Shown here piece after piece: positions 43,356 through 59,437 of a stretch of 64,000 bases of DNA. Numbering within the stretch: the first letter of the stretch is position 1; each line of letters begins with the position of its first letter. Source of the DNA: Flavobacterium praedii (GTDB lineage Bacteria > Bacteroidota > Bacteroidia > Flavobacteriales > Flavobacteriaceae); assembly GCF_026810365.1 (NCBI RefSeq), contig NZ_CP113948.1, forward strand, positions 1,327,001-1,391,000, read 5' to 3'. The position numbers and the translations under genes are program-made. The notes under the pieces are model-generated. The model was not told where the DNA came from and did no database searches. It was given only the letters and a program-made list of their open reading frames with translations.

Positions 43356-45215
43356 ATGAAGAAGAAAGTAGAAATATTAGCGCCTGCAAAAGATTTAATT
43401 CACGGTATAGCTGCAATCAACAGTGGTGCTGACGCCGTATATGTTGGTGCTCCGCAATTTGGAGCACGTTCCAATGCCACCAACTCTATTGAAGATGTTG
43501 CTACCTTGGTGCAATATGCCCATTTATACAATGTTCCCGTTTTTGTGGTTTTGAATACCATTCTTTACGATAACGAATTGGAGACCTGTCGTCAGCTAAT
43601 TTGGAAATTATATGACATTGGTGTTGACGCGCTTATCATTCAGGATATGGCCATTATGGAAATGGACTTGCCTCCTATCATCTTGCACGCCAGTACACAA
43701 GCCAACAACAGAGATGCCGACAAAATGAAATTCTTGGCCGATGCCGGAATCAAACGTGTGGTTTTGGCTCGTGAATTGAACTTACACCAAATCAAAGAAA
43801 TCAGTACTACAACTGATGTCGAACTGGAATTTTTCGTGACAGGTGCTTTGTGCGTTTCTTTCAGCGGGAATTGTTATATGAGTGTTGCTAATGGAGAACG
43901 TAGCGCCAATCGAGGTTCTTGCGCTCAAAACTGCCGTTTACCGTACAACCTGATTGATGGTCATGGAGAAACTTTAATCAAAAGTACACACTTACTTTCT
44001 ATAAAAGATTTTGACGTTTCGAATGAAATTCCAAATTTAGTAGAAGCGGGGGTTTGTTCGTTTAAAATCGAAGGTCGTTTGAAAGATATCGTTTATGTAA
44101 AGAACAACGTTTCGTACCTTAGACAAAAACTAGATGCTTTCTTGGAAGATAATGATAAATACACTAAAGCTTCTTCTGGAAAATGTACTTTTACGTTTGA
44201 CTCTGCTTTGAACCGTACCTTTAACCGCGGTTATACCGATTATTTTGTTAACGAGCGTCATGATACTATTGGTTCTTGGGAAAGTCCAAAATCCAAAGGA
44301 CAATACATTGGTAAATTAATCCGAACTGTTGGAAATGCTTACGAAATTGAAAATGGAGAATTATTGAACAATGGTGATGGTTTGTGCTACATCAATGAAA
44401 ATAACGAAGCTGAAGGAATCTATGTCAATAAAGCAGAAAATGGTTTGGCTTATCCAAATGTTCTAAAAGAAATCAAAGACGGTACTTTCATTTACCGAAA
44501 CAATGACGCTGCTTTTATAAAAATCGTTGAACGCGAGGATAGTGCTGTTCGAAAAATAAGTACTTCATTGTTATTATTCGAAAACGAAACTGGTTTTGAG
44601 TTACTTGCTACAGATGAAGATGGCAATACGAGCACAGTTCAATTGGTTCATCCAAAAGAACAAACCAAAAACAATCAATCCATCGAAGAAAACATCAAAA
44701 CGCAGTTGGCCAAAACAGGTTTTACGCCTTATACAGCCGATGAAATAACAGTTCAATTTTCAGACAATTGGTTTTTACCCATTTCAAAAATCAATGAAAT
44801 GCGCAGAACGGTTTACGAGCAACTAACAGAAACTCGTTTGAAAAATTACAAACGCGAAGAACGCAAAATCGAAAAAACGTCTCACCCTTACCCTGAAGAA
44901 AAATTGGATTTCATGTACAATGTTTCCAACAAATTGGCTCGCAAGTTTTATGAGCGCCATGGGGTAACCGAAATCGAGAAAGCCTTTGAATTGCAATGGG
45001 ATCCAGGGAAATCGCGTGTAATGACAACCAAATATTGCATCAAATACGAGTTGGCCAAATGTCCAAAATACCACAAAGACACTATGGAAACCAAACTAAA
45101 AGAACCTTTGGTGTTGAAACAAGGCGAATTGGAATACAAACTGAAATTCAATTGCAAACCTTGCGAAATGGAAATTTGGGAAAAAGACGCCGAATTTGAA
45201 ATTGAAGAAGATTAA
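43356..45215 (+). CDS. U32 family protein (RNA-hydroxylation peptidase-like)
   Basis: A 619-residue cytoplasmic U32 family member. The U32 signature is clear: ELEFFVTGALCVSFSGNCYM near 156-175, followed by SANRGSCAQNCRLPYN. Four cysteines in this region and the C-terminal CPKYH and CKPCEMEIW can hold an iron-sulfur cluster. Family members TrhP and RlhA hydroxylate tRNA U34 or 23S rRNA rather than cleave protein; which of the two this is cannot be told without alignment. Its length agrees with full-length members with the C-terminal extension. Confidence 0.9.
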   Translation: MKKKVEILAPAKDLIHGIAAINSGADAVYVGAPQFGARSNATNSIEDVATLVQYAHLYNVPVFVVLNTILYDNELETCRQLIWKLYDIGVDALIIQDMAIMEMDLPPIILHASTQANNRDADKMKFLADAGIKRVVLARELNLHQIKEISTTTDVELEFFVTGALCVSFSGNCYMSVANGERSANRGSCAQNCRLPYNLIDGHGETLIKSTHLLSIKDFDVSNEIPNLVEAGVCSFKIEGRLKDIVYVKNNVSYLRQKLDAFLEDNDKYTKASSGKCTFTFDSALNRTFNRGYTDYFVNERHDTIGSWESPKSKGQYIGKLIRTVGNAYEIENGELLNNGDGLCYINENNEAEGIYVNKAENGLAYPNVLKEIKDGTFIYRNNDAAFIKIVEREDSAVRKISTSLLLFENETGFELLATDEDGNTSTVQLVHPKEQTKNNQSIEENIKTQLAKTGFTPYTADEITVQFSDNWFLPISKINEMRRTVYEQLTETRLKNYKREERKIEKTSHPYPEEKLDFMYNVSNKLARKFYERHGVTEIEKAFELQWDPGKSRVMTTKYCIKYELAKCPKYHKDTMETKLKEPLVLKQGELEYKLKFNCKPCEMEIWEKDAEFEIEED

Positions 45216-45241
45216 GGTCTCAATTCTTTAAACTCACATAC

Positions 45242-45284
45242 AAAAACCACAAAGTAAATTGCTATTTATTTTGTGGTTTTTTTT
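45242..45284 (+). terminator. Terminator after the U32 gene
   Basis: AAAAACCACAAA (45242-45253) pairs with TTTGTGGTTTTT (45270-45281), followed by more T. It lies 27 bp after the stop. Confidence 0.85.
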
Positions 45285-45323
45285 ATGTTTAATTTTGGAA
45301 TAAATCGTCATAAAAATAACGAA

Positions 45324-45363
45324 CACTGAATTCAGTGGGGTATTATTTAAAATCCTAAATTTG
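45324..45363 (+). promoter_or_regulatory. Palindrome plus -7 box upstream of the lipoprotein gene
   Basis: A perfect 14-bp palindrome CACTGAATTCAGTG (45324-45337) precedes an exact -7 element TAAATTTG (45356-45363), while the TTG element is missing. The palindrome centre would lie about 40 bp before the transcription start, a usual place for an activator site. The factor is unknown. Confidence 0.5.
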
Positions 45364-45385
45364 TAACAAACCAATAAAACCAAAC

Positions 45386-45967
45386 ATGAAAAATCTATTT
45401 ACTCCCCTATTCATTATAGCATTTGTGTTGATTTCCTGCAAAAATGAAGCTGAAAACCAAGCTCCTAAAGTAGTTGTTCCTTTTTATCAAGTTGCCAATC
45501 AGCAGCAAAATCAAACGTTAAAAACTCCACAGCCAAACCAAAGTCAAAGTCTATACCCAGCCCCATCTGCTCAAAATACAACGACTCAGACACAAACCGT
45601 GACTGCTCCAGTGGCTGTTGCAAAAGGAATGAATCCTTCACACGGTCAACCAGGTCACCGTTGCGATATTCCTGTAGGAGCTCCCTTGAATTCTCCAGTT
45701 GCTACAACAAATCCATCGACAACTCAAGTAACTTCTAAACCAACTGTAACAGCAATTCCATCAGCAATATCAACTCCAAAAGGTATGAATCCTCCACACG
45801 GGCAACCAGGACACCGTTGTGACATTCCTGTTGGATCTCCACTAAATTCTCCAGTAGCCGCTGCTAAACCTGCAACACCTCAAGTGGTTCCAAATTATAT
45901 CGTTTCCCCTCCTTCAACAAGTGAAGTTCCTGCTGTAACTCCTGCAGCAACAACTCCTCCTCAATAA
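45386..45967 (+). CDS. Lipoprotein with two copies of a His/Cys motif
   Basis: A 193-residue lipoprotein with lipobox LISC (Cys18) and a low-complexity chain rich in Pro, Thr, Gln and Ser. Two 27-residue repeats stand out at about 80-106 and 132-158. Each carries GMNPxHGQPGHRCDIPVG followed by xPLNSPVA. The repeats are almost identical in protein but differ at about 11 synonymous positions in DNA, so the sequence is under selection. The conserved two His and one Cys could bind a metal or haem, or form disulfides. I do not know a characterised family. It has its own promoter-like region and no operon partner. Confidence 0.75.
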   Translation: MKNLFTPLFIIAFVLISCKNEAENQAPKVVVPFYQVANQQQNQTLKTPQPNQSQSLYPAPSAQNTTTQTQTVTAPVAVAKGMNPSHGQPGHRCDIPVGAPLNSPVATTNPSTTQVTSKPTVTAIPSAISTPKGMNPPHGQPGHRCDIPVGSPLNSPVAAAKPATPQVVPNYIVSPPSTSEVPAVTPAATTPPQ

Positions 45968-46064
45968 GAATATAATTTAAAAAAGTTAGAGCACTAAAAA
46001 TCAAATTAGTACACCCTTTTTTCATAACTTTATAAAAACATAAAAATCAGATTCAACTTATTTA

Positions 46065-46097
46065 ATCTTTGTCAAAGTTCAAAACTTTGACAAAGAT
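46065..46097. repeat. 33-bp palindrome, copy 2
   Basis: ATCTTTGTCAAAGTT, loop CAA, AACTTTGACAAAGAT, with 15-bp perfect arms. It is the second copy of the palindrome at 38989-39021 and differs mostly at the ends and loop. It lies between the lipoprotein gene and the DJ-1 gene. Confidence 0.8.
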
Positions 46098-46139
46098 GTC
46101 ATAATAAAAAACTGGTATTAATTTAAAAATTAAAATAAA

Positions 46140-46715
46140 ATGAAAAAAGTATTGTTCTTAACAGGTGATTTCACCGAAGATTATGAAACTATGGTTCCGT
46201 TTCAAATGCTAGAAATGGTAGGATATACTGTTCATACTGTTTGCCCCAATAAAAAAAAGGGAGACACTGTAAAAACAGCTATTCATGATTTTGAAGGCGA
46301 CCAAACGTATACCGAAAAACCAGGTCACAATTTTGCTCTAAATTATAGTTTTGATGATGTAAAAGTGGAAGAATACGATGGACTAGTTATTGCAGGAGGA
46401 AGAGCTCCCGAGTATTTGAGATTGAACGAAAAAGTACTTGAAATAACAAAGCATTTTTTTACCACCAATAAACCCGTTGCTGCCATTTGTCACGGTATTC
46501 AAATTTTAACCGCAGCTGGCGTTGTCAAAGGACGAAAATTAACTGCTTATCCTGCAGTAGGTCCAGAAGTAACATTGGCTGGTGGAGAATTCCAATCTAT
46601 TCCTGTTGATGGAGCATTTGTTGATGGAAACTTAGTCACCTCCCCTGCTTGGCCAGCTCATCCGAGTTTTATAAGAGAATTTCTTAAAATTATGGGAACC
46701 AAAATTGAAATTTAA
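46140..46715 (+). CDS. DJ-1/PfpI family protein
   Basis: A 191-residue cytoplasmic protein of the DJ-1/PfpI superfamily. The nucleophile cysteine lies in [20 protein letters not shown], and the glutamate-containing stretch [15 protein letters not shown] is present. Relatives act as glyoxalases/deglycases, proteases or chaperones, so the exact activity is uncertain. No partner gene is evident. Confidence 0.9.
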
Positions 46716-46772
46716 TTTCACATCAAAATAAGGCATTACTTTAAAGTTTATATTTAAGTAAAACAATTCAAT

Positions 46773-46810
46773 AACTACAACAAGAAGTAATTTTGTTGTA
46801 GTTTTTTTTA
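46773..46810 (+). terminator. Terminator after the DJ-1 gene
   Basis: AACTACAACAA (46773-46783) pairs with TTGTTGTAGTT (46793-46803), followed by T residues. Confidence 0.85.
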
Positions 46811-46861
46811 CCTTTGAAAATCATTACCTTTTTATACCAATACAAGATTACAATTAATTTT

Positions 46862-47368
46862 ATGATTACAACAGCAACACTAGAAGATGTATTTTCTTTA
46901 GAAAAATTAATCAATTCTGCCTACCGTGGAGAAACTTCAAAACAAGGTTGGACCACAGAAGCAAACCTTTTATCTGGAAAAAGAATTACTTTAGATGAAT
47001 TATCAGAAGTTATTCAAAACAAAAGCAATAGCATTTTAAAATACACAAAAAACAATCAAATCATCGGATCTGTTTTACTGGTCAATAAAGAATCCAAACT
47101 TTATTTGGGAATGCTAACCGTTTCACCAGAATTGCAAAATAGCGGTATTGGAAAATTATTACTAAAAGAAGCCGAAGTTCATGCTTCATCAATGGGTTTG
47201 CCTAAAATTGTAATGACCGTAATTTCCATCAGGAAAGAATTAATTGAATGGTACAAACGCCATGGTTACGAGGACACGGGAGTAAGAGAACCATTTCCGC
47301 TTAATGATACCGATGCAGTTATTGCGAATCAACCATTAGAATTCATTGTTTTAGAAAAAAAACTTTAA
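46862..47368 (+). CDS. GNAT family N-acetyltransferase
   Basis: A 168-residue acetyl-CoA-dependent acetyltransferase. The start is set at ATG 46862 (MITTATLEDVFSLEKLI); upstream codons overlap the end of the terminator region. The acetyl-CoA motif A is LGMLTVSPELQNSGIGKLLL, and WYKRHGYEDTG near the end fits motif B. The substrate is unknown. Confidence 0.88.
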   Translation: MITTATLEDVFSLEKLINSAYRGETSKQGWTTEANLLSGKRITLDELSEVIQNKSNSILKYTKNNQIIGSVLLVNKESKLYLGMLTVSPELQNSGIGKLLLKEAEVHASSMGLPKIVMTVISIRKELIEWYKRHGYEDTGVREPFPLNDTDAVIANQPLEFIVLEKKL

Positions 47369-47510
47369 AACTACTATAACGTTTGAGATATATTTATAAA
47401 TTAGTAAAAAAAAATATTATTTATGAAATGAGCATAACAGAACATTGGTTGTAAAAATCAATCTTCTTCTGCGAATTACATATGACCACTAAAAAAATAA
47501 ATATATACAT

Positions 47511-47975
47511 ATGAAAACATTAGATCAATGGTTTGAAGAATACGCAGTAAGCCACCAAAACCCAAAAAATAAGGCCATACACTATATTTGTGTTCCTGCT
47601 ATTTTCTTTTCAGTATTGGGTTTATTGATGAGTATTCCGAGTGGATTTTTGAATTCTATTTTTCATTTAAACCAACCTATCATTGAAAACTGGGGATTTG
47701 TAGCTTTGCTATTTGTTTCTATATTTTACTTCAGATTGTCTGTTCCTATGGCTATCAAGATTATCATTTTCTCTTTTCTTTGCTTGATTCTAAATCAATA
47801 CATCGGACAGTTTGTGCCACTTTGGGCTTTCTCAATTGGAGTTTTCGCTATCGCTTGGATTGGACAATTTTATGGACATAATATTGAAGGCAAAAAACCA
47901 TCATTCCTAAAAGACATACAATTCTTGATGATTGGTCCTGCTTGGGTGGTACAAAATTTATTTTCAAAAAAATAA
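47511..47975 (+). CDS. Mpo1-like (DUF962) membrane protein
   Basis: A 154-residue membrane protein with four hydrophobic segments. It carries the family phrases YAVSHQNPKNKAIHYICVP near 11-29 and GHNIEGKKPSFLKDIQFL near 122-139, whose His residues bind iron in the yeast 2-hydroxy fatty-acid dioxygenase Mpo1. A lipid alpha-oxidation role is inferred from that homologue. Confidence 0.86.
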   Translation: MKTLDQWFEEYAVSHQNPKNKAIHYICVPAIFFSVLGLLMSIPSGFLNSIFHLNQPIIENWGFVALLFVSIFYFRLSVPMAIKIIIFSFLCLILNQYIGQFVPLWAFSIGVFAIAWIGQFYGHNIEGKKPSFLKDIQFLMIGPAWVVQNLFSKK

Positions 47976-48065
47976 TGGATTGATATTATTATTTTATTCA
48001 TTATACTCTTACAATAAAAAAAGAACTACTTTTACTTAAAGCTACTTGCAATACTTATTTTTAGA

Positions 48066-48095
48066 TTGCACTATTTATAAGCAACTCTAATCTTG
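48066..48095 (+). promoter_or_regulatory. Possible promoter of the contractile module
   Basis: TTG at 48066-48068, 19 bases, TAATCTTG at 48088-48095, one mismatch from TAnnTTTG. It lies about 40 bp before the sheath ATG. Confidence 0.4.
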
Positions 48096-48134
48096 GTTTT
48101 TTGTTTTTGTAGAACAATAATGATTAAAATTTAA

Positions 48135-49718
48135 ATGTCAATGAAATCATCCAAAATCGAAAAACCAGGTGTTTATATACAAGAATTAAATGCTTTTCCA
48201 AATTCAGTTGTAGCAGTTGCTACTGCTGTTCCAGCATTTATTGGTTACACACCGCAAGCAGTATACAAAGGTAAATCTTACAAAAATGTGCCAGTAAGAA
48301 TCACTTCCTTTTCAGACTTTCAGGCCTATTTTTGTTTTCCAAACCCTCCGCTTCCTGCTAGTCCTGCTAAACAATACAGTCCCGAATATTATTTAGTACA
48401 ACAAAATAGCCAACCCACAAAGGGAGATTCTATATTGATTAATGGTTCTTATTATTCTATAGTTCCAGATTCCAATACTATTTATTATTTGTACAATAGT
48501 GTAAAGCTTTTTTATGAAAATGGCGGTGGTGATGCTTATATTGTTTCTGTTAGTTCGTATGGTCCTCCTTCCAAAAAGGCAATGACTCCATATACAACAA
48601 TTGCAAATCCAAATGTGCAACTCAATGACTTATTGTCGGGACTTGCTTTATTACAAAAGGAGTCCGAACCTACAATGTACATCTGCCCGGAAGCAACCTT
48701 ATTAAGCATTGAGAACAACGCAACACTCATGCAAAATATGCTTCTTCAATCTTCAAATATGCAAACGACAATGTGTATTTTTGATGTCATTGGAGGTAAT
48801 AATCCCGATCCCATTTTATACACAGAAGACATTTCAAATTTTAGAATGAATACAGGTACTATTGGCCTGAATTATGGAATGGTCTACTACCCTTTTATTG
48901 GAACAACCATCATGCAAAATCAGGACATTGATTATACCAACTTATTTGGTGGAGACATAAAACAATTAGAAGCCATCATTAATCCTACGAGTAATCCCAA
49001 TCCAAGCATCAGCACAATTATTGCAAACATCCAAAATCCGGAGAGTGGTTTGACGGTTACCCAAAACAATAATGCTCTAATAATTGCGAGCCCAATCTAT
49101 TCCTTGATAATAAAACATGTATTAAATGATGCCAATATTCTTCCTCCAAGTGGTGCAATGGCAGGTTTAATCACTACAATTGACAATCAGGTAGGACCTT
49201 GGGAAGCACCCGCAAACACTTCTATCGTTGGAGCTGTGTCATTGCCCATTTGTATTTCAGAGAGTCAACAGGGTAATTTAAATATAGATGCTGTTTCAGG
49301 AAAATCCATAAATGCCATTCGAATATTCAATGGACTTGGTATTTTGGTTTGGGGAGCAAGAACTCTGGATGGAAATAGTCAAGACTGGAGGTATATTCCT
49401 GTACGAAGAACAATGATTTTTCTTGAGCAGTCTTGCAAATTAGCTGCTCAGCCTTATGTATTTCAACCGAATGACAAAAATACTTGGGAAGCTGTAAAAT
49501 CAATGTTATCAAACTTTTTAACACAGGTATGGAAACAAGGCGGACTACAAGGTGCCAGTGCATCCGATGCCTTTTTAGTGGAATGTGGTTTGGGAACAAC
49601 TATGACGGGTGAGGATATCCTTAACGGATTTATGACTGTTACCATAAAAGTTGCTGTTGTTCATCCAGCCGAATTCATTGTCCTAACATTCCAACAACAA
49701 ATGGCAATCCCCAATTAA
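48135..49718 (+). CDS. Contractile tail sheath protein
   Basis: A 527-residue sheath protein of phage-tail/contractile injection system type. It opens with the family phrase KPGVYIQELNAFPNSVVAV and includes AVPAFIGYTP. The C-terminal domain (about 395-527) has RRTMIFLEQSCKLAAQPYVF, NTWEAVKSMLSNFLTQVWKQ and the end VAVVHPAEFIVLTFQQQM. Sheath proteins form the outer cylinder that shortens to drive the tube into a target. It heads a five-gene cluster with tight spacing. It resembles sheath proteins of extracellular injection systems (Afp2-4/Pvc2-4) more than those of a complete prophage, as no capsid or packaging genes are near. Confidence 0.93.
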   Translation: MSMKSSKIEKPGVYIQELNAFPNSVVAVATAVPAFIGYTPQAVYKGKSYKNVPVRITSFSDFQAYFCFPNPPLPASPAKQYSPEYYLVQQNSQPTKGDSILINGSYYSIVPDSNTIYYLYNSVKLFYENGGGDAYIVSVSSYGPPSKKAMTPYTTIANPNVQLNDLLSGLALLQKESEPTMYICPEATLLSIENNATLMQNMLLQSSNMQTTMCIFDVIGGNNPDPILYTEDISNFRMNTGTIGLNYGMVYYPFIGTTIMQNQDIDYTNLFGGDIKQLEAIINPTSNPNPSISTIIANIQNPESGLTVTQNNNALIIASPIYSLIIKHVLNDANILPPSGAMAGLITTIDNQVGPWEAPANTSIVGAVSLPICISESQQGNLNIDAVSGKSINAIRIFNGLGILVWGARTLDGNSQDWRYIPVRRTMIFLEQSCKLAAQPYVFQPNDKNTWEAVKSMLSNFLTQVWKQGGLQGASASDAFLVECGLGTTMTGEDILNGFMTVTIKVAVVHPAEFIVLTFQQQMAIPN

Positions 49719-49758
49719 TTAACTAACGAATGAATTTTAATTTGAAAAAATAAATAAT

Positions 49759-50223
49759 ATGGCAACAGATGATGGTAGCATAGAAGGCGCAACATGGCCA
49801 ATGCCAAAATTTAGGTTTGAAGTAGACTTAGGTACAGAACTTACAAAAGTAGCCTTTCAGGAAGTATCTGGAATGGATGTAGAAAACCAAATAATAGAAT
49901 ATCGAAGTACTAATAGTCCTTTATTTTCTGTAGAAAAAATGCCGGGCATTACCAAATACGGAAATATTACTATGAAGCGAGGCATCTTTGTGAATGACAA
50001 TACTTTTTGGGATTGGCATCAACAAATTGTAATGAATACAATCAAAAGAAGAACGATTGTAATAAAATTGTTGGATGAAAGTGGAAATGTAACTATGCAA
50101 TGGACATTAAACAACGCGTGGCCCACTAAAATTACCAGCACCGACTTAAAATCAGATGGAAATGAGGTAGCCATTGACACCATAGAAATTGCACATGAAC
50201 AATTAATTATTTCAAATGGATAA
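49759..50223 (+). CDS. Tail tube protein 1 (gp19 family)
   Basis: A 154-residue inner-tube subunit of the T4 gp19-like family (PMPKFRFEVDLGTELTKVAF, FQEVSGMDVENQIIEYR, then GNITMKRGIFVNDNTFWDWH). It would form the rigid tube inside the sheath, as Afp1/Pvc1 do. It overlaps the next tube gene by 8 bp, which points to coupled translation. The sheath gene lies 40 bp upstream. Confidence 0.92.
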   Translation: MATDDGSIEGATWPMPKFRFEVDLGTELTKVAFQEVSGMDVENQIIEYRSTNSPLFSVEKMPGITKYGNITMKRGIFVNDNTFWDWHQQIVMNTIKRRTIVIKLLDESGNVTMQWTLNNAWPTKITSTDLKSDGNEVAIDTIEIAHEQLIISNG

Positions 50224-50680
50224 TGATACTCCAATAGAATTTTATTTTAAACTTACTTTTAAAGATCAAGATATTGCTTTCCAAAAAGTTTCGGGTATTT
50301 CAAAAGAATTCAGCATTGAAGAAGTTTCTAGTGGTGGTGAAAATCAGTTTAAGTACCGCTTGCCAACTGTTTCCAGTAGCGAAAATTTAGTTCTCAGGAG
50401 AGCTATTGTACCACCTGATTCCTTATTAGTGAATTGGTGTGAAAGTTGCATTAATCAAGGATTGTCCAGTCCGATTCAACCCGAAAAAATGACATTAAGT
50501 TTAGTCAATGCAAACGATCAAACAATTATGCAATGGACTTTTCATAACGCTTATCCTGTAAAATATCATGTTTCTGACTTGAACACACAGGAAAATGCCA
50601 TTATTATAGAATCATTAGAACTGGCCTATACCTATTTTGATGTTTCTACAATTACAAATACTACTAATCTTTTTACCTAA
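50216..50680 (+). CDS. Tail tube protein 2 (gp19 family)
   Basis: A second 154-residue tube-like protein (FYFKLTFKDQDIAFQKVSG, ENLVLRRAIVPPDSLLVNW, WTFHNAYPVKYHVSDL). It is homologous to the first but clearly diverged, in the way that Afp5/Pvc5 differs from Afp1: such a protein usually makes the first ring that joins tube and spike. It is separated from the spike gene by 4 bp. Confidence 0.9.
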   Translation: MDNDTPIEFYFKLTFKDQDIAFQKVSGISKEFSIEEVSSGGENQFKYRLPTVSSSENLVLRRAIVPPDSLLVNWCESCINQGLSSPIQPEKMTLSLVNANDQTIMQWTFHNAYPVKYHVSDLNTQENAIIIESLELAYTYFDVSTITNTTNLFT

Positions 50681-50684
50681 AATA

Positions 50685-52484
50685 ATGAGTACAACAAGCG
50701 AAATATCAAGTGGTTCAATTGCCACGTTTTCTATCAAAGTCAATGGAGAAATAATTCCAGATTTGTTTAATATATACTCAATTCATGTTGAAAAAAATAT
50801 AAACCGAATCCCAATTGCCAAAATAGTAATTCTGGATGGTGAGCCCAATACTGGAACATTTGATGCTAGCTCATCAGCTACATTTCTGCCTGGTGCCACA
50901 ATTAGTATTGAAGCAGGATATGATTCAAAAAATGAGTTGATTTTTAAAGGAATAATTACAAGCCAATCGATTCGCATTGACAGTATAGTGGGTTCAGCAT
51001 TAGAAGTTGAATGTCGAGATCCTGCAGTTAAAATGATTGTGGGTCGAAAAAGCATTACCTATAACAATAAAAAAGACAGTGATATTATTTCATCTATTAT
51101 CGGAAGTTATTCGGGCTTAACTTCGGAAGTTTCGACCACTACAACTACATGGCCCGAACAGGTTCAATATTATGTAACCGATTGGGACTATATTTTGGCT
51201 CTTGCCGAAGCAAATGGATTAATTGTAACAACAATAAACGGGAAAGTTGCTGTTAATGCACCAGACAGCAATACCTCATCTGTTTTGAAAGTCTCTTATG
51301 GAGATGGCCTGATGGAATTTAATGCAAAACTGAATTCCATTCCTCAACTTGGAAATGTAACTTCTAATTCTTGGGATTTTAAAAATCAAGCAATACTAAA
51401 TGGTCAAGCCACTCCAAATGAAGCTGGAGCTGGCAATCTATCTACAAAAAAACTTTCCGAAGTCATAGGCCTTTCTGTCTATCAATTACAAACCTCAGCA
51501 CCATTAGAAACCACTGATTTAAACAGTTGGTCCAAAGCACAAATTGTAAAAAGTGAATATTCGAAAATAATAGGCGAAGCAAAATTTCAAGGTACGAGTT
51601 TAATTGACCCAGGAAAATGTATGACTTTTGATGGGCTTGGAGATCGTTTTAATGGTGATTACCTCATCTCTGGCGTGATTCATGAACTATCAGAAGGCAA
51701 TTGGCTTTCGACAGTAAATCTTGGTCTTTCTCCAAATTGGTTTACAGAAGAACCCGATGTGATGGCACCACCAGCATCTGGCCTTTTGCCTGGAGCTCGA
51801 GGCCTTTTGAACGGAACAGTTAAACAACTATTTGGCGATCCTGATTCTCAATATAGAATTCTGGTAAATGTTCTATTCTTTGACACTAACGGAGCAGGTA
51901 TTTGGGCAAGACTTTCCAATTTTTATTCCACTAGTGGAGCAGGTGCCTTTTTTTTACCTGAAGTAGGTGATGAAGTAATTCTTGGTTTTTTAAATGAAGA
52001 TCCCCGTTTTCCTGTGATTTTGGGAAGCTTGTACAGTAATTCGAAAATAAAACCTTTTACTGGATTAGAACCCAATGAAAAAAATTCAATAAAAGCCATC
52101 GTTTCCAAATCTGGAATTTCAATTGAATTTGATGATGAAAATAAAATTTGGACAGTGGCTACACCCAGTAAAAACACCATAAATATTAGTGACAAAGACA
52201 AACAAATTACTATCAAGGATCAAAACCAAAATAGCATCGTAATGTCCAGTAGCGGCATCGATATGTCGAGTCCAAAAAGCATAAACATTTCAGCTCAGGA
52301 AAAAGTAACCATCAAAGGAACTCAAGGGATTGAAATTGAATCCAATGGCGGTGATGTTGAAACAAAAGGGTTGAATATAAAAGAATCAGCAGCTATGCAA
52401 TACGCCGCTCATGGTGAACAAATGGCGGAAGTATCAGGAGGAATGGAATTAACGCTGAAAGGCGCAATGGTAATGATAAACTAG
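50685..52484 (+). CDS. VgrG/Pvc8-like spike protein
   Basis: A 599-residue spike protein. The start chosen is ATG 50685 (MSTTSEISSGSIATFSIKVN). The N-terminal part (about 15-370) is the gp27-like platform, with RIPIAKIVILDGEPNTGTFD near 45-64 and VTDWDYILALAEANGLIV near 165-182. An OB-fold like that of gp5 follows (LLNGTVKQLFGDPDSQYRIL, VGDEVILGFLNEDPRFPVIL), and then a repetitive beta-helix needle (INISDKDKQITIKDQNQ, IDMSSPKSINISAQEKV). No effector domain is appended. Confidence 0.92.
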   Translation: MSTTSEISSGSIATFSIKVNGEIIPDLFNIYSIHVEKNINRIPIAKIVILDGEPNTGTFDASSSATFLPGATISIEAGYDSKNELIFKGIITSQSIRIDSIVGSALEVECRDPAVKMIVGRKSITYNNKKDSDIISSIIGSYSGLTSEVSTTTTTWPEQVQYYVTDWDYILALAEANGLIVTTINGKVAVNAPDSNTSSVLKVSYGDGLMEFNAKLNSIPQLGNVTSNSWDFKNQAILNGQATPNEAGAGNLSTKKLSEVIGLSVYQLQTSAPLETTDLNSWSKAQIVKSEYSKIIGEAKFQGTSLIDPGKCMTFDGLGDRFNGDYLISGVIHELSEGNWLSTVNLGLSPNWFTEEPDVMAPPASGLLPGARGLLNGTVKQLFGDPDSQYRILVNVLFFDTNGAGIWARLSNFYSTSGAGAFFLPEVGDEVILGFLNEDPRFPVILGSLYSNSKIKPFTGLEPNEKNSIKAIVSKSGISIEFDDENKIWTVATPSKNTINISDKDKQITIKDQNQNSIVMSSSGIDMSSPKSINISAQEKVTIKGTQGIEIESNGGDVETKGLNIKESAAMQYAAHGEQMAEVSGGMELTLKGAMVMIN

Positions 52485-52489
52485 ACAAT

Positions 52490-52789
52490 ATGCCAGCAGC
52501 AGCAAGACTTACAGATTTTCACGAATGCCCAATGGTAACTCCAGGCTTACCTCCTATTCCGCATGTCGGTGGTCCAATCGTTGGCCCAGGAGAACCAACC
52601 GTATTAATAGCTGGATTACCTGCCGCAAGAGTTGGTGATATGCTAGTTTGTGTTGGTCCACCAGATTCGATTATTAAAGGATCTACAACAGTAATGATTG
52701 GCGGAATGCCAGCAGCAAGAATAGGTGATCAAACAGCACACGGCGGATCAATACTATTGGGAGCTTTTAACGTTATCATTGGGGGATAA
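52490..52789 (+). CDS. PAAR-domain tip protein
   Basis: A 99-residue PAAR protein, the conical tip placed on the VgrG spike, with metal-binding His and Cys in LTDFHECPMVTPG, MLVCVGPPDSI and RIGDQTAHGGSI. It starts 5 bp after the spike gene and is the last gene of the cluster. No effector extension is attached, and the gene downstream (NmrA-like) is an unrelated enzyme. Confidence 0.92.
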   Translation: MPAAARLTDFHECPMVTPGLPPIPHVGGPIVGPGEPTVLIAGLPAARVGDMLVCVGPPDSIIKGSTTVMIGGMPAARIGDQTAHGGSILLGAFNVIIGG

Positions 52790-52943
52790 AAAATTTAACC
52801 ATCATTTATTGCAACTTAGTTTCATACATTTTACAAAACTAGTACTTTATAAATCGTACATATACAAAATATAACTCACTAATAATCTAACATATAGTAC
52901 ATTTTCATTAATTTTATATTCTTAATAAAACAAATTAATAAAA

Positions 52944-53894
52944 ATGGAAACTAAAAAAATAATCACCGTATTTGGTGCCACAGGAGCACAAGGTGGAGGA
53001 TTGGCCATAGCTATTTTGGCCGATACAAATAGTGAATTTTCAGTAAGAGTGGTGACAAGAGATTCTAATACTGAAAAAGCTAAATCTTTTATTGAATTAG
53101 GGGCTGAAGTTGTCGAAGCTAATATTGATGATATACAAAGCATTAAAAATGCTCTAAAAGGTGCTTATGGTGCTTATTTTGTTACGTTTTTCTGGGAACA
53201 TTTCTCGGTAGACAAAGAACTACAAGAAGTGCGAAATTTTATTGAAGCGGCAAGAGAATCCCATCTTAAACATATCATTTGGTCAACATTGGAAGACACT
53301 CGAAACTGGATGAAATTAGACGATGACAGAATGCCTACTTTACAGGAAAAATACAAAGTTCCTCACTTTGATGGAAAAGGAGAAGCCGATCATTTTTTTA
53401 GAGAGGCCGATTTGCCTACTACTTTTTTAAGAACTTCTTTTTATTGGGATAATTTCATCCATTTTGGTATGGGCCCTCAAAAAGGTGAAGACGGGAATTA
53501 CTATATTGCTTTCCCAATGGATGACAAAAAGCTAGCGGGAATTGCTGCGGAAGATATTGGTAAATCTGCTTATGGAATATTCAAAAAGGGAAATGAATTA
53601 ATTGGAAAAACAATCGGTATTGCTGGAGAAAAATTAAGCGGATATGAAATGGCTGAAAAACTCTCAAATGCATTGAATATACATGTCCTTTTTAATCCTG
53701 TAAGTCCCGAAGTATATCGCAATTTTGGATTTCCAGGAGCTGATGATTTGGGAAATATGTTTCAGTTTAAAAGAGATTTTAATGATGATTTTAATGCTGC
53801 AAGAAATGAAGTTTTCGCAAAAGAATTGAATCCTTACCTTCAAAATTTTGATGCATGGCTTACCAATAATACTTCAAAAATTCCTATCGATTAA
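52944..53894 (+). CDS. NmrA/HSCARG family NAD(P)-binding protein
   Basis: A 316-residue Rossmann-fold protein with the opening ITVFGATGAQGGGLAIAIL for dinucleotide binding and the family phrases GAEVVEANIDDIQSIKNAL and AAEDIGKSAYGIF. NmrA/HSCARG proteins sense the NADPH/NADP state or reduce small molecules; the role here is not identifiable. The gene is convergent with hypE, 80 bp away. Confidence 0.87.
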   Translation: METKKIITVFGATGAQGGGLAIAILADTNSEFSVRVVTRDSNTEKAKSFIELGAEVVEANIDDIQSIKNALKGAYGAYFVTFFWEHFSVDKELQEVRNFIEAARESHLKHIIWSTLEDTRNWMKLDDDRMPTLQEKYKVPHFDGKGEADHFFREADLPTTFLRTSFYWDNFIHFGMGPQKGEDGNYYIAFPMDDKKLAGIAAEDIGKSAYGIFKKGNELIGKTIGIAGEKLSGYEMAEKLSNALNIHVLFNPVSPEVYRNFGFPGADDLGNMFQFKRDFNDDFNAARNEVFAKELNPYLQNFDAWLTNNTSKIPID

Positions 53895-53974
53895 ATTTTA
53901 AAAACAGACCAACAAAAATTGGGGGCAGTTCGTTTCATAATCACGTTTATCTTTTCTTTCTTAGATTGAATAAC

Positions 53975-54985
53975 TCAGCAAATTCTAGGCAACTGCTCCC
54001 CAATAAGTGGACTCACCACTCTTTTTCCTCCAAAAGAACTCTCTAGAATGATTTTGGCTTTTTCATCGTTGGTAACAACTCCAATTACGGATGGTTTTTG
54101 GCCCATACTTTCTAAAATTTGTATAATTTCAGTTTCAGACTCTTTGCTTGTAATACACACAAATACTCCTTCATTGGCAACGTACAGTGGGTCTAATCCT
54201 AGAATTTCGCAAGCGCTTTTTACTTGCTTATCAACACTAATAGCATCGTCTTTCAAAAGCATTCCAAGTTTGCTTTCGGTGGTAATTTCATGTAAAACAG
54301 AGGCCAATCCTCCACGTGTGGCGTCTCTAAGAAAATGGATTTCATTACCACAATTGTCCATTAATGTTTCTACAAACTTGTTCAGATTATTGGTATCACT
54401 GAGGATTTCACTTTCAAATTGCAGCCCTTCCCTTTCAGACATAATCGCCATTCCATGAGAAGCTATCGGCATATTGATGATAATAGAATCCCCTGCTTGG
54501 ATTCTTTTAATACTAATATTTGCATTTTTATGCAAAACTCCAACCCCTGCAGTATTGATGTAGATTTTATCTCCTTTGCCTCTCTCAACCACTTTTGTGT
54601 CGCCAGTAACAATTGAGACTCCTGCTTTGTCGGCAGTTTCTCTGATTGACTTTATAATTGCTGTAAATTCATCCATTCCAAAACCTTCTTCAATAATAAA
54701 TGCCAAGGAAAGGTATTTTGGTATTGCACCACACATGGACAAATCGTTTACGGTACCATTTACCGCCAATTCGCCTATATTTCCTCCTTTAAAAAATATC
54801 GGATGCACGACATAACTATCGGTTGTAAAAGCCAATTTGCCTTGTATATCAAGGAAAGCACCATCATGTCGCACATTTAATATTGGATTATCCAAATATT
54901 TAAAAATCACTTCATTTAGCAATCTAGTAGTGTGCTCTCCCCCGCTTCCGTGATGTAAATTGATTTTTTCCTGAGATTCTTGCAT
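53975..54985 (-). CDS. hypE: Hydrogenase expression/formation protein HypE
   Basis: Dehydrates the C-terminal thiocarboxamide to thiocyanate, making the cyanide ligands of the [NiFe] centre. It has 336 residues. The AIR-synthase-like fold is visible in HHGSGGEHTTRLLNEV, FTTDSYVVHPIFFKGG and SIVTGDTKVVERGKGDK. The C-terminus ends in PRIC, and this terminal cysteine is the carbamoyl acceptor used by HypF. It is the last gene of the leftward hypABCE operon, 10 bp after hypC. Confidence 0.97.
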   Translation of the reverse strand: MQESQEKINLHHGSGGEHTTRLLNEVIFKYLDNPILNVRHDGAFLDIQGKLAFTTDSYVVHPIFFKGGNIGELAVNGTVNDLSMCGAIPKYLSLAFIIEEGFGMDEFTAIIKSIRETADKAGVSIVTGDTKVVERGKGDKIYINTAGVGVLHKNANISIKRIQAGDSIIINMPIASHGMAIMSEREGLQFESEILSDTNNLNKFVETLMDNCGNEIHFLRDATRGGLASVLHEITTESKLGMLLKDDAISVDKQVKSACEILGLDPLYVANEGVFVCITSKESETEIIQILESMGQKPSVIGVVTNDEKAKIILESSFGGKRVVSPLIGEQLPRIC

Positions 54986-54995
54986 TGTACTAAAA

Positions 54996-55232
54996 TTAAA
55001 TTTCTTCGCCCATTTGTTTCAGAACTTCCATGGTGATTTTGGCTTCTTCTTCATTTATGATTGCTATGGCAGCTCCAACATGAACTAACAAATAATCTCC
55101 GATCTTGGCTTCGGGAACCAATGTCAAATTTACTTCTTTCACAACACCGTCAAACGAGACACTTCCTATTCTGAAAGTTTCGTCAATTTCTTGTGTTATT
55201 TTTTCTAATTTACCAGGAATTGCTAGACACAT
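54996..55232 (-). CDS. hypC: Hydrogenase assembly chaperone HypC
   Basis: A 78-residue HypC/HupF protein starting MCLAIPGKLEKI. The N-terminal Cys2 binds the iron centre and the large-subunit precursor. The fold ends with LVHVGAAIAIINEEEA. It works with HypD, whose gene starts at 63654. It lies 4 bp from hypB in the same operon. Confidence 0.97.
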   Translation of the reverse strand: MCLAIPGKLEKITQEIDETFRIGSVSFDGVVKEVNLTLVPEAKIGDYLLVHVGAAIAIINEEEAKITMEVLKQMGEEI

Positions 55233-55236
55233 ATCT

Positions 55237-56073
55237 TTAGTTTATTATGGATTTTTTTAAAAAATCATACCAACCTTCCATACCTTCGCCTGTATAAGCT
55301 GATACTTCAAAAAAGGTAAGATGAGGATTTACCTGTTTGGCATAATTTTTCAATTTTTCGATATCAAATTTCAAATAAGGAAGTAAATCAATTTTGTTAA
55401 TGATGCATATTTGAGAACCATAAAACATATCTGGATATTTAATCGGTTTGTCTTCCCCTTCGGTAACCGAAATAATAACAGCTCGAGTATTTTCGCCCAA
55501 ATCAAACATAGATGGACATACTAGATTTCCAACATTTTCAATCATCAAAATCGAATGATCCGCTGGAGCCAATTCTTTGACGGCTTTTGAAATCATATCA
55601 CTATCCAAATGACATCCTTTACCTGTATTGATTTGTATTACGGGAACTTCAAGTGCAGCGATTCTGTCGGCATCATTGGTAGTTTGCTGATCACCTTCAA
55701 TTACGGAGAAAACTATTTCTTTTTTCAGATCAGCAATGGTTCTTTCCAAAAGAGAGGTCTTTCCAGAACCTGGGGAACTTACCAAATTTATAGAAAAAAT
55801 GTTTTTAGCATCAAAATAGCCTCTGTTTCGCTCCGCCAATAAATCATTTTTATGTAAAATTTCTTTTTCTAAATCAATTTCTTTGGTTTCATAATGAAGA
55901 TGTACATGATCGTGATCGTGATCATGCGTGTGTTCATGATCATGCGTATGTTCGTGATCATGCCCATGATGATGCTCATGCGAATGAACGTGAGAAGTTT
56001 GTGCTTTTTTATTGTTTACGTCTATAATTTTCACCTGGTTATTATCAGGATTACACCCACAAGTTACACACAT
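55237..56073 (-). CDS. hypB: Hydrogenase nickel incorporation GTPase HypB
   Basis: A 278-residue GTPase that delivers nickel. The N-terminus MCVTCGCNPDN carries the CxxCGC nickel site. A His-rich stretch follows at about 28-60, with runs such as HEHHHGHDHEHTHDHEHTHD, likely a nickel store. The P-loop is SSPGSGKTSLLERT and the switch and G-motif are IENVGNLVCPS and CIINKIDLLPY. It is transcribed in the leftward operon between hypA and hypC, 5 bp after hypA. Confidence 0.97.
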   Translation of the reverse strand: MCVTCGCNPDNNQVKIIDVNNKKAQTSHVHSHEHHHGHDHEHTHDHEHTHDHDHDHVHLHYETKEIDLEKEILHKNDLLAERNRGYFDAKNIFSINLVSSPGSGKTSLLERTIADLKKEIVFSVIEGDQQTTNDADRIAALEVPVIQINTGKGCHLDSDMISKAVKELAPADHSILMIENVGNLVCPSMFDLGENTRAVIISVTEGEDKPIKYPDMFYGSQICIINKIDLLPYLKFDIEKLKNYAKQVNPHLTFFEVSAYTGEGMEGWYDFLKKSIIN

Positions 56074-56078
56074 ATCCT

Positions 56079-56423
56079 TTATCTATTTGAGATTACTAAT
56101 TTATTGATTTTAAATTCTTTTCCCGAAATAATACTTTTAAAAGGACTATTGCATTTGGTACAAGAATCATATATTTTTTCTAAATGATATTCAAAATCAC
56201 AATCCAAGCATTTGGCTTTTCCTTCGGGTTGAGCAATGGTGACTTTTGAATCTTGCAAAACCGTTCCTTTTGTTGCCAATTCCCAAATAAAATTTAAAGA
56301 AGCTATTTCTATCCCGGAAAGCTTACCAATTTCTAAAAAAATTTCCAAAACTCTTTCGTTTTTATCTGTAATTTCTTTTTCGGATGTTTTTATAATGGAT
56401 GTCACAATAGACAATTCGTGCAT
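56079..56423 (-). CDS. hypA: Hydrogenase nickel chaperone HypA
   Basis: A 114-residue protein with the N-terminal MHELSIV (nickel through His2) and a zinc knuckle formed by CLDCDFEYH and CTKCNS. It hands nickel to HypB for insertion into the large subunit. It is the first gene of the leftward operon and is divergent from the hydrogenase structural genes. Confidence 0.96.
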   Translation of the reverse strand: MHELSIVTSIIKTSEKEITDKNERVLEIFLEIGKLSGIEIASLNFIWELATKGTVLQDSKVTIAQPEGKAKCLDCDFEYHLEKIYDSCTKCNSPFKSIISGKEFKINKLVISNR

Positions 56424-56459
56424 AATTATGATATTTTAGCATTACCTACAAAATAACTA

Positions 56460-56522
56460 CAAATATAGCATCAAAAATATGATAATTATCATAAATCAAC
56501 ATACGAAAACGTTGTATATTTG
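56460..56522. promoter_or_regulatory. Divergent hyp/hydrogenase promoter region with 14-bp palindrome
   Basis: An exact -7 element is found on each strand: TATATTTG at 56515-56522 (+, toward the structural genes) and its reverse complement at 56460-56467 (toward hypA). Neither has a TTG element at 17-23 bases. Between them, 56479-56492 is the perfect palindrome ATGATAATTATCAT. The site is about 43 bp before the rightward start and 33 bp before the leftward one, which fits an activator or repressor acting on both operons. Confidence 0.65.
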
Positions 56523-56558
56523 TTTGATTTACAATTTATTAACAATAAATTAAATGTT

Positions 56559-57680
56559 ATGAGTCAAGAAATTAAAAAAAACGAAACCTATTATGAAAGT
56601 ATTCAGAGACAGGGATACAACCGAAGGGATTTTTTAAAATTTGTGGCCTTCATTGGTGCTTATATGGGAGTAGAATCTTCTACATTAGGACAAATTGCAA
56701 AATCCTTATCGACTAAACCAAGACTCCCTGTAATATGGGAACACTTTCAGGAATGTACGTGCTGTAGCGAATCGTTTATACGCTCAGACCACCCTATCGT
56801 GGCGGATATTATTTTAGATAAAATTTCTCTTGACTATACCTTAACATTAATGGCCGCATCGGGACATCAAGCAGAAGCTGCCAAAAAAGCAACCATGGAG
56901 AAATATAAAGGAGAATATATCCTTTGTGTCGAAGGATCAATTCCTTTGGGTGATGACGGTAATTATTGTTGTATTGGTGGAAGAAGTGCGGTAGAAATTT
57001 TAAAAGAAGCTGCTGCTGGAGCAAAAGCAATTATTGCATGGGGAAGTTGTGCAACATCTGGCTGCGTTCAAGCTGCTAAACCAAATCCTACTGGTGCTGT
57101 ATCCATTGATAAAATTATAACAGATAAACCGATAATCAACGTTCCTGGTTGTCCACCAATTGGTGAAGTTATGGCTGGTATTATTGTACACGTTGTCACT
57201 TTTGACAGACTTCCAGAACTTGATGACGCAGGAAGACCAAAAGCTTTCTATTCCAAAAGAGTACATGACAGCTGCTATAGAAGACCTTATTTTGATGCCG
57301 GCTTATTTGTAGAAAATTTCGATGACGAGAATGCAAAAAAAGGCTATTGCTTATACAAAGTGGGTTGCAAAGGACCAACTACCTATAATGCCTGTGGCAA
57401 CATCAAATGGAACGGAGGCGTTAGTTATCCAATACAATCCGGTCACGGATGTCTTGGTTGCAGTGCCAAAGGATTCTGGGATGCAGGAAGTTTCTATTCG
57501 AGAGATTTAGCTATGGGAGGTGCAATTGAAGCCGATGCTGATACAATTGGAAAAGTAGCTTTGGGTGCCGTAGTTGGTGGCGCTTTGATACATGGAACCA
57601 TTTCTAATATTGCAAAAAGGAAAGAATTAGAAAGAAGAATTAAAGACGGAATAGACGTTGAATCAAACATTGAAGATTAA
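56559..57680 (+). CDS. hyaA: [NiFe]-hydrogenase small subunit, oxygen-tolerant type
   Basis: A 373-residue electron-transfer subunit from the ATG at 56559; a TTG 13 codons upstream is also in frame, but it overlaps the -7 box. The Tat signal has RRDFLKF at 22-28. The proximal-cluster cysteines are C66, C68, C69, C164, C169 and C198, each exactly 49 above the numbers used for mature HoxK (17, 19, 20, 115, 120, 149), so all six cysteines of the oxygen-tolerant [4Fe-3S] cluster are there. The medial and distal cluster cysteines lie in [18 protein letters not shown] and HGCLGC. A C-terminal helix ([15 protein letters not shown]) anchors it in the membrane. Confidence 0.96.
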
Positions 57681-57700
57681 CAAACCAAAAATAGAACAAA

Positions 57701-59437
57701 ATGGCAGAAAGAATCGTAGTCGACCCAATCACCAGAATTGAAGGACATTTAAGAGCCGAAGTAGAAATCTCAGATGGAACTATACAAGAAGCTTTTGTTT
57801 CTTCAACAATGGTAAGAGGTCTTGAAAATATAGTAAAAGGAAGAAATCCAAAAGATGTTTGGGCATTTGTGCAAAGAACTTGTGGTGTTTGTACCGCAGT
57901 TCATGCCACAGCATCGGTTAGAGCTGTTGAAGATGCTTTAGGAGTAAAGGTACCGCCAAATGCAGAAATGGTTCGAAACATCATGCTTGGGTCATTATAC
58001 ATACACGATCACGTTGTTCACTTTTACCATCTTCATGCTTTTGATTGGGTGGATGTGGTAAGTGGCTTAAGTGCTGATCCTGTGAAAACGTCACAATTGG
58101 CTCAAAGCATTTCAAATTGGCCCAAAAGTTCCCCAGGTTATTTCTCGGATTTGCAAAAAAGACTGAAAAAATTTGTTGCAAGTGGTCAATTGGGAATTTT
58201 TGCCAATGGCTATTGGGGGCATCCCCAAATGAAGCTCCCGCCAGAAGCAAATCTTATGGCAACAGCCCATTATCTTGAAGCTTTGGAATGGCAAAAAGAG
58301 ATTGTGAAAGTTCATGCTATTTTTGGAGGTAAAAATCCTCATCCTAACTTTTTAGTTGGAGGAATGGCCTGCGCTATAAACCTTGACGATGCAAGTGGTC
58401 TTAACGCTGAAAGATTGGCTATGGTTGAAAAATTGCTGATCCAAGGAAAGAATTTCGTGGAGCAAGTTTACATTCCAGATGTATTGGCAATTGCGGGTTT
58501 CTACAAAGATTGGGGAGCCATTGGTGGATTCCACAATTTTATGAGTTTTGGCGATTTTCCAATGCAAGGATACAACAACACCAATACCAATACTTTCAAA
58601 TTCCCATCGGGTGTAATTCTAAATAAAGATTTAACAAAAATTCATAATCTTGATTTAAGGGATTTAAAAACCGTTGAAGAATATGTAAATAATTCATGGT
58701 ACGATTATGAAGGCGATGGAAATGCAGGTCTTCATCCTTGGAAAGGTGAAACCAAAATCAATTATTCTGGTCCAAAACCACCCTATACCCATTTGGATGT
58801 AGACAAAAAATACAGTTTCATTAAAACGCCAAGATGGAAAGGCCATGCCATGGAAGTAGGCCCTTTGGCGAGAACGCTAATTGGTTATGCATCGGGAAGA
58901 CCTGAATACAAAGAAATTGTTGACGCAACACTGTCTAAACTTCAAGTGCCTGCAGCAGCTCTTTTCTCCACATTAGGAAGAACAGCCGCTAGAGCTTTGG
59001 AAACACAATTAGTCGCCAATTGGAATTTGGAATTCTTTACTACTTTGATAAGCAACATCAAAAATGGAGATACCAGAATGTCCAATATGGAAAAATGGGA
59101 AACTTCTACTTGGCCATCCGAAGCAAAAGGAGTTGGATTGGTTGAAGCACCAAGAGGCGCATTAAGCCATTGGATCGTAATCAAAGATGGGAAAACAGAC
59201 AATTACCAACAAGTGGTTCCATCTACTTGGAATGCCTCTCCTCGAGATCCAAAAGGACAAAGATCGCCTTACGAAAGTGCCTTATTAAACACTCCAGTTG
59301 CTAATCCGGAGCTGCCATTAGAAATCATCCGAACGCTTCATTCTTTCGACCCATGTATTGCCTGTGCGGTGCATTTGTATGACGAAAAAGGAGACATCAT
59401 CAAAGAAGTAAATGATATTTCTGTCTGTAGTATATAA
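57701..59437 (+). CDS. hyaB: [NiFe]-hydrogenase large subunit
   Basis: The 578-residue catalytic subunit that splits H2. The L1 motif RTCGVCTAVH holds C61 and C64, and the L5 motif DPCIACAVH holds C552 and C555; these four Cys bind the NiFe(CN)2CO centre. Twenty residues after H558 form the C-terminal extension removed by the maturation protease after nickel insertion. The gene lies 20 bp downstream of the small-subunit gene and belongs to the same operon. With the Tat signal on its partner, the complex is exported to the periplasmic side. Confidence 0.97.
   Translation: MAERIVVDPITRIEGHLRAEVEISDGTIQEAFVSSTMVRGLENIVKGRNPKDVWAFVQRTCGVCTAVHATASVRAVEDALGVKVPPNAEMVRNIMLGSLYIHDHVVHFYHLHAFDWVDVVSGLSADPVKTSQLAQSISNWPKSSPGYFSDLQKRLKKFVASGQLGIFANGYWGHPQMKLPPEANLMATAHYLEALEWQKEIVKVHAIFGGKNPHPNFLVGGMACAINLDDASGLNAERLAMVEKLLIQGKNFVEQVYIPDVLAIAGFYKDWGAIGGFHNFMSFGDFPMQGYNNTNTNTFKFPSGVILNKDLTKIHNLDLRDLKTVEEYVNNSWYDYEGDGNAGLHPWKGETKINYSGPKPPYTHLDVDKKYSFIKTPRWKGHAMEVGPLARTLIGYASGRPEYKEIVDATLSKLQVPAAALFSTLGRTAARALETQLVANWNLEFFTTLISNIKNGDTRMSNMEKWETSTWPSEAKGVGLVEAPRGALSHWIVIKDGKTDNYQQVVPSTWNASPRDPKGQRSPYESALLNTPVANPELPLEIIRTLHSFDPCIACAVHLYDEKGDIIKEVNDISVCSI

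Follow-up and report, generated by a model that had tools for sequence, protein, structure and literature searches.

Within a 64,000-nucleotide stretch of the Flavobacterium praedii chromosome (contig NZ_CP113948.1, forward strand, positions 1,327,001 to 1,391,000; hereafter the window, to whose first letter all coordinates refer unless they are given as genome positions), positions 48135-52789 hold five tightly packed genes for parts of an extracellular contractile injection system (eCIS): a sheath protein, a main inner-tube protein, a tube adaptor, a VgrG-type spike and a PAAR tip. The block keeps the gene order of full single-sheath eCIS operons, minus the LysM gene and minus everything beyond PAAR, and represents a known type of system in variant form rather than an undescribed machine. 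It arose from such an operon by deletion, the missing parts that we searched for are absent from the genome, and the retained genes differ in how strongly selection constrains them. On the whole, we incline to the view that the block is an eCIS reduced in place that no longer injects, some of its parts probably being kept for another role.

The five open reading frames (ORFs) carry the expected domains and form the tight operon described by a first-pass annotation of this DNA, which had also suggested looking for frame damage; we found none in any of them. The sheath gene (48135..49718, + strand) encodes 525-527 aa, its homologues starting at 48141, and its product matches PF17482 above the cut-off and PF04984 below it (22.6 vs 31.4 bits). 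Against solved structures, it scores 370 bits with 9r9h_T, 270 with AlgoCIS 7adz and 267 with Anabaena 7b5h. The main inner-tube protein (49759..50223, +; PF06841) is Alg1/Cis1-like, with 187 bits to 9r9h_B, 166 to 7b5h_AN and 153 to 7adz_1a. The next gene (50216..50680, +; PF06841), which overlaps that of the main tube by 8 bp, encodes a second gp19 protein that we regard as the Alg5/Pvc5-like adaptor between tube and initiator because its best structure matches are 7aeb_Y (102 bits; we take this chain to be Alg5), 9rce_I (96), 7b5h_AM and Pvc5 (58). NCBIfam does not tell the two gp19 proteins apart, both being nearer to CIS5 and below its cut-off; the main tube scores 86 bits with CIS5 and 31 with CIS1, both far below cut-off. 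After a 4-bp gap comes the VgrG/Cis8-type spike of 599 aa (50685..52484, +, with its ATG at 50685), which matches PF04717 above the cut-off, TIGR01646, and Phage_GPD below the cut-off, and which scores 476 bits with 9rce_F, 455 with 7b5h_AJ and 374 with 7aef_q; in several searches the query began at 50682, one codon ahead of the ATG. The 99-aa PAAR tip (52490..52789, +; PF05488 above the cut-off) follows after another 5 bp. We found no additional domain on spike or tip, and since the spikes of full systems have 598-599 aa, no effector is fused to this one, as had been noted from the sequence.

The origin of the block is apparent from its relatives. Of 7999 candidate proteins scored, 7926 are homologues of the sheath at E <= 1e-3, and a scan of genome contigs with the sheath as query confirmed 98 loci, the best 80 of which, at 61-84% identity to the F. 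praedii sheath, were kept. We sorted these 80 with the proteins of a complete operon (genome G103) as queries, calling a locus full if LysM, gp25 and a Cis11-type wedge were present. Forty-five were full, 13 partial and 15 had a solitary sheath; 5 were unclear (contig ends) and 2 had a short sheath ORF. The order of genes is the same in 45/45 full loci: sheath, tube, adaptor, LysM, VgrG, PAAR, gp25, wedge. The G103 proteins are 80% (sheath), 91% (tube), 63% (adaptor), 73% (VgrG) and 91% (PAAR) identical to those of F. praedii, and the downstream proteins of the full operon presumably include a DUF4157-like stretch. The nearest relatives of the five genes belong to full eCIS operons and stand there in the same order; because all five have such close relatives in those operons, chance is excluded. 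The arrangement, proposed at first as undescribed, is thereby the one found in 45 of the best 80 loci with further genes in place.

The rest of the machine is not encoded nearby. A tblastn search of 45001-56000 with 17 full-operon proteins (E 1e-3) returned the five genes only, which bears out the earlier remark that the missing parts are not adjacent; Cis12, the AAA+ ATPase (Cis15) and the terminator Cis16/Pvc16 are absent from 45001-56000, no genome-wide search having been made for these three. The F. praedii genome is one contig of 4,168,457 bases with a completeness of 100%, and across all of it we found no sheath (PF04984), gp19 tube or PAAR_motif beyond the block's own. The LysM/CIS_tube initiator (Cis7, PF19266) has no match in it, this family having 35 matches in 31/199 Flavobacterium genomes. 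There is likewise no match in it to the tape measure (PF19268; 8/13 genomes searched were positive) or, with the L061 protein as query, to the Cis11-type wedge of 1250-1290 aa (G103 was positive). The sole gp25 (Cis9-like) match lies at genome position 2415475, 1 Mb off, and Phage_base_V occurs only in the block's VgrG and at 2392129. Both that gp25 and the second VgrG belong to an ordinary type VI secretion system of subtype iii (T6SSiii; genome positions 2389969-2415834), which holds TssN at 2403593 and other genes that we take to be ClpV-like, Hcp-like and gp25/TssE-like; no TssN is linked to the block. The genome search that the first-pass annotation called for thus found gp25, in the T6SSiii locus only, and neither tape measure nor Cis11-type wedge. 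A split eCIS or T6SSiv, with the rest of the genes elsewhere in the genome, was considered and is ruled out by the whole-genome searches for a second sheath or tube, LysM, tape measure, Cis11-type wedge and gp25.

The block sits between an Mpo1-like gene (47511..47975, +; PF06127) and an NmrA-like gene (52944..53894, +; PF05368), flanks that had been named correctly and that serve as chromosomal site markers outside the module, the site being conserved. Related remnants occupy this mpo1-nmrA site in four other Flavobacterium species. Flavobacterium sp. A45 (G151) has all five genes; F. taihuense (G030) and Flavobacterium sp. M31R6 (G168) have sheath, tube, VgrG and PAAR, with the adaptor in neither; F. 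aquariorum (G094) has an intact sheath, a startless tube1 that runs into PAAR, and a PAAR with an internal stop. The proposed comparison across Flavobacterium therefore yields the same five genes in A45 and smaller remnants in the other three, and these three sister species are already without the tube adaptor. In G150 the site is empty, with mpo1 and nmrA about 100 bp apart, and in G157 two other genes sit between them. An opposite-strand ORF of 910 aa lies between block and nmrA in F. taihuense (L040:14292-17024), where Pfam identifies it as a P-type cation ATPase, and in F. aquariorum (L066:12200-14932), where it begins alike by eye.

Two deletion junctions can be placed within the site. 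At the first (50681..50684, +), the adaptor stop and the start of VgrG lie 4 bp apart; in full operons the interval measures 852-1546 bp and contains the gene for the LysM/CIS_tube initiator. The 4-bp spacing is common to F. praedii and A45, with 56/68 surrounding bases identical, and is exceeded in 45/45 full loci. At the second (52790..52943, +), PAAR is followed by nmrA, and in full operons by gp25 and the wedge genes. A45 and M31R6 resemble each other in the DNA directly after PAAR, and F. praedii and A45 do so over the whole PAAR-nmrA spacer (0/1000 shuffles as high in both cases). In the sheath tree, F. praedii groups with F. taihuense (support 94), within a group that includes A45 (96, starred; 97, starred, in a smaller tree), and the larger tree unites all five site loci in a single clade (Shimodaira-Hasegawa-like approximate likelihood ratio test, SH-aLRT, 89). 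VgrG supports one site clade with 93 in the smaller trees, for which, as for the tests of topology, we took 22 or 23 of the 45 full loci and excluded the tube1 of SLB02. The reduction is therefore older than these species: the shared junction places it before the split of F. praedii and A45, and the grouping in the sheath tree suggests that it also precedes the split of F. taihuense.

To what extent the remaining genes are maintained can be read from their codons. We used our own script of a GY94-type codon model, not PAML; at saturated distances its estimate of background omega cannot be relied on, as a Pseudoalteromonas test showed. In the clade comparison by maximum likelihood, the background was 6 of the 45 full loci and the foreground the reduced clade without its stem, with monophyly forced and the F. 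aquariorum tube1 excluded. Omega is higher in reduced than in full loci for the sheath (0.102 vs 0.041; twice the log-likelihood difference, 2dlnL, 59), the main tube (0.108 vs 0.024; 2dlnL 24), VgrG (0.101 vs 0.062; 2dlnL 17) and above all the adaptor (0.366 vs 0.078; 2dlnL 27), and is nearly the same for PAAR (0.062 vs 0.059; 2dlnL 0.02). The foreground is below 1 in all five genes (p 3e-4 for the adaptor, p<1e-20 for each of the others). The two halves of the sheath behave alike, and pairwise Nei-Gojobori (NG86) values for this gene are 0.092-0.129 among reduced loci (10 pairs) vs 0.028-0.065 among 8 full loci (28 pairs). On the terminal branch of F. praedii, omega is 0.149 for the sheath (p 4e-12 vs 1), 0.175 for VgrG (p 9e-5) and 0.033 for PAAR (p 1e-7); that of the adaptor is not distinguishable from 1 there (p 0.25). 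As a control on a damaged gene, the tube1 remnant of F. aquariorum gave an omega of 0.27, raised yet below 1. Since this control gave 0.27 and not 1, a raised omega alone cannot separate decay from function, and the values are to be taken with care. Such a pattern does not suit a machine that works as one unit, and it is hard to square with a dead locus.

Reduced states of this eCIS are also found away from the mpo1-nmrA site. In the sheath tree, built without the two short-ORF loci (L105, contig-cut, and L118, interrupted), partial and solitary states each have several origins, with at least 7 changes apiece forced by starred branches. The 15 solitary-sheath loci among the best 80 (L070, L078, L080, L082, L086, L091, L096, L097, L098, L102, L103, L109, L110, L113 and L114) were found through a sheath query and so carry a bait bias; they have unrelated neighbours (gene maps read for 14/15) and come from several Bacteroidota families and Pseudoalteromonas. 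Solitary full-length sheath ORFs have 514-567 aa. The two Pseudoalteromonas sheaths (L109:10007-11584 and L113:10007-11584) are intact and lie in a conserved locus with the same 120-aa gene after them; each has 525 aa, 457/525 residues are identical, and omega is 0.19 (with a saturated background). For the other reduced or solitary sheath branches, which may span time before reduction, omega is 0.20 (F. piscis/SLB02), 0.15 (Lacinutrix), 0.045 (F. restrictum), 0.066 (Polaribacter) and 0.066 (Pedobacter), the last not different from background (p 0.11).

Within the genus, a short sheath of this kind occurs in 16/199 Flavobacterium genomes (G141 counted in at 45% identity), with LysM alongside in 7/16 and lacking from 9/16; it is also lacking from 6/13 short-type VgrG loci. 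All 35 LysM matches of the genus are, by eye, near a sheath match, most of them of the long-sheath eCIS type. Four genomes (G153, G033, G024 and G141) have the sheath with no tube or spike within the 19 kb read, and in G153 a tape-measure fragment adjoins it. G129 and G179 have VgrG and PAAR intact without this sheath, with omegas of 0.13 and 0.11 on the VgrG branches; these lone VgrG-PAAR pairs of the same eCIS type lie at L159:7462-9574 and L160:7919-10019. C-terminal tape-measure fragments were also seen by the reduced sheath loci of Lacinutrix himadriensis (L101:15008-15508) and F. restrictum (L128:8548-9102), where they are traces of internal deletion. That solitary sheaths and spike-tip pairs recur is, we think, the most interesting part of the result. 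This recurrence raises the tentative idea, which we consider rather unlikely as a general account, that eCIS sheaths and VgrG-PAAR pairs have repeatedly been freed and adopted as stand-alone parts acting without injection, for example as intracellular sheath polymers, with the five-gene block as an intermediate.

The history that we favour for the block may be put as follows. One deletion would have taken the LysM initiator from between tube adaptor and VgrG, and a second everything from gp25 onward, i.e., wedges, tape measure, ATPase and cargo. Deleting singly the tube (Pvc1, Pvc5, Pvc7), baseplate (Pvc8, Pvc11, Pvc12) or sheath-initiator (Pvc4, Pvc9) genes of the Photorhabdus virulence cassette (PVC) stops particle formation (PMC12210884), which suggests that a block lacking the initiator, gp25 and wedges could form no loaded particle. 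Selection would have kept sheath, main tube, VgrG and PAAR, their products probably doing something besides injection, perhaps as a sheath/tube polymer or as a spike-tip complex inside the cell. A sheath polymer is conceivable because recombinant T4 gp18 tends towards polysheaths, although no polymerisation is seen with simpler prophage sheath proteins (PMC9230969). The partnerless adaptor would be drifting, and its release from constraint makes sense because the LysM initiator was its partner.

Several observations weigh against this history and leave room for a plain relic without function, in which the genes are intact as the loss is recent and the signal of selection is residual or imported by recombination. 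We regard such a relic as a serious possibility, if not a likely one. Loss at the site is graded and includes pseudogenes, and elsewhere the SLB02 tube is split over two frames and the F. piscis PAAR is a fragment. Sheath, tube, adaptor and VgrG are under looser constraint than in full systems, which slow decay fits too, and the omega of the tube on the F. praedii branch (0.088) is not significantly below 1 (p 0.14). Tube1 (49759-50223) also bears the mark of interspecies recombination, dS between F. praedii and F. taihuense being 0.09 vs 0.42-1.19 in the flanking genes, and such exchange could carry a selection signal from elsewhere. The common origin of the site loci also has gaps: the first 76 bp after PAAR are not clearly alike in F. 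praedii and A45 (244/1000 shuffles as high), and the smaller trees neither show nor reject one site clade (approximately unbiased test, p 0.53 for sheath, 0.57 for tube and 0.90 for PAAR). A remnant of the adaptor ahead of VgrG in F. taihuense, seen by eye, was withdrawn when 555/1000 shuffles scored as high. Ahead of the sheath there is no match to a Flavobacterium-type promoter motif; sigma-70-like sites number 35 vs 23.1 expected, a count that tells us nothing either way. A relic sits less well with the terminal branch of F. praedii, which by tree and junction postdates the reduction and on which sheath, VgrG and PAAR keep the low omegas given above, and with the close environmental relatives P0002 and P0003 (91-92% identity), which keep a full-length sheath of 525 aa.

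The first-pass annotation had offered a reduced system with a new assembly route, in which sheath, tubes, spike and tip assemble into a working minimal injector without initiator, gp25 and wedges. Five intact ORFs and clade omegas that are all below neutral would suit it, but the PVC deletions abolish particles, the adaptor evolves almost freely in this lineage and is gone from sister species, and a Pfam scan of the neighbours recognised no cargo gene; the block derives by deletion from a single-sheath eCIS operon, with further loss in the sisters, and we find such an injector very improbable. Completion of the parts by the genome's own T6SSiii, which would lend its baseplate, gp25/TssE and ClpV, seems to us still harder to credit. 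That system is present in F. praedii, but it has its own VgrG and, as we presume, Hcp-like genes. Moreover, TssN was found in 2/5 site genomes (G000, i.e., F. praedii, and G094) and not in G151 or G030, with G168 below the cut-off, and neither G129 nor G179, the genomes with lone VgrG-PAAR pairs, is among those with TssN; this distribution over the site genomes implies that the block does not owe its retention to a T6SSiii. A fragment of a prophage tail appears the least plausible origin of all, even if these families are common to phage tails: of 50,697 phage records, 392 match the sheath but no match extends over 80% of the protein, the ten best of those listed have 25-28% identity across 44-54% of it, compared with 61-84% identity for the 80 bacterial loci, and no phage structural or lysis genes were recognised among the Pfam-scanned neighbours. 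Among plasmids, 121/72,556 records match the sheath, all below 60% identity. In the surroundings, no Rfam families were found at 44000-58000, and rightward of nmrA, at 53975-59437, lie hydrogenase maturation genes (AIRS/HypE-like, CobW/HypB-like and HypA) and the small and large subunits of a NiFe hydrogenase, as identified with Pfam.

If the parts stay selected long after the machine has become unbuildable, then either they serve a different function or the accepted idea of the smallest gene set that makes a working machine is mistaken; if they are only slowly dying relics, they show clearly in what order the pieces of an eCIS disappear. Such sets would escape two surveys. One of these demands at least ten core genes (PMC8213781), where the F. 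praedii block has five, and another all three essential protein classes (PMC12210884); because they require near-complete operons, reduced sets would be omitted by design. A search of open-licence papers, judged by title and start of abstract, found none among those listed that deals with eCIS or sheath genes in an orphan, reduced or solitary state, which is no proof of absence in print.

The block can be set beside systems that are already known. Complete single-sheath eCIS of Flavobacterium and other Bacteroidota, such as that of G103 and the solved 9r9h/9rce, have the same five genes in the same order, and beyond them the G103 operon has Pvc16_N, LysM/CIS_tube, gp25, two large wedge-like proteins, a tape measure and an AAA+ ATPase. 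Sheath, tube, adaptor and spike are homologous to those of AlgoCIS from Algoriphagus machipongonensis (7adz, 7aeb, 7aef), whose cluster comprises 18 ORFs, including Alg7, Alg9, Alg11, Alg12, cap and plug, vs five genes here, and in which the gp25-like Alg9 initiates sheath assembly (PMC8894135). The thylakoid-anchored contractile injection system of Anabaena (7b5h) has homologous sheath, tubes and spike, but unlike the F. praedii block it is a complete system (PMC8894136). The orphan hcp/vgrG/PAAR islands of type VI secretion systems (PMC13098142) are likewise parts of a contractile system that stand alone; they belong, however, to such a secretion system, whereas no machine matching the block was found in the F. 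praedii genome.

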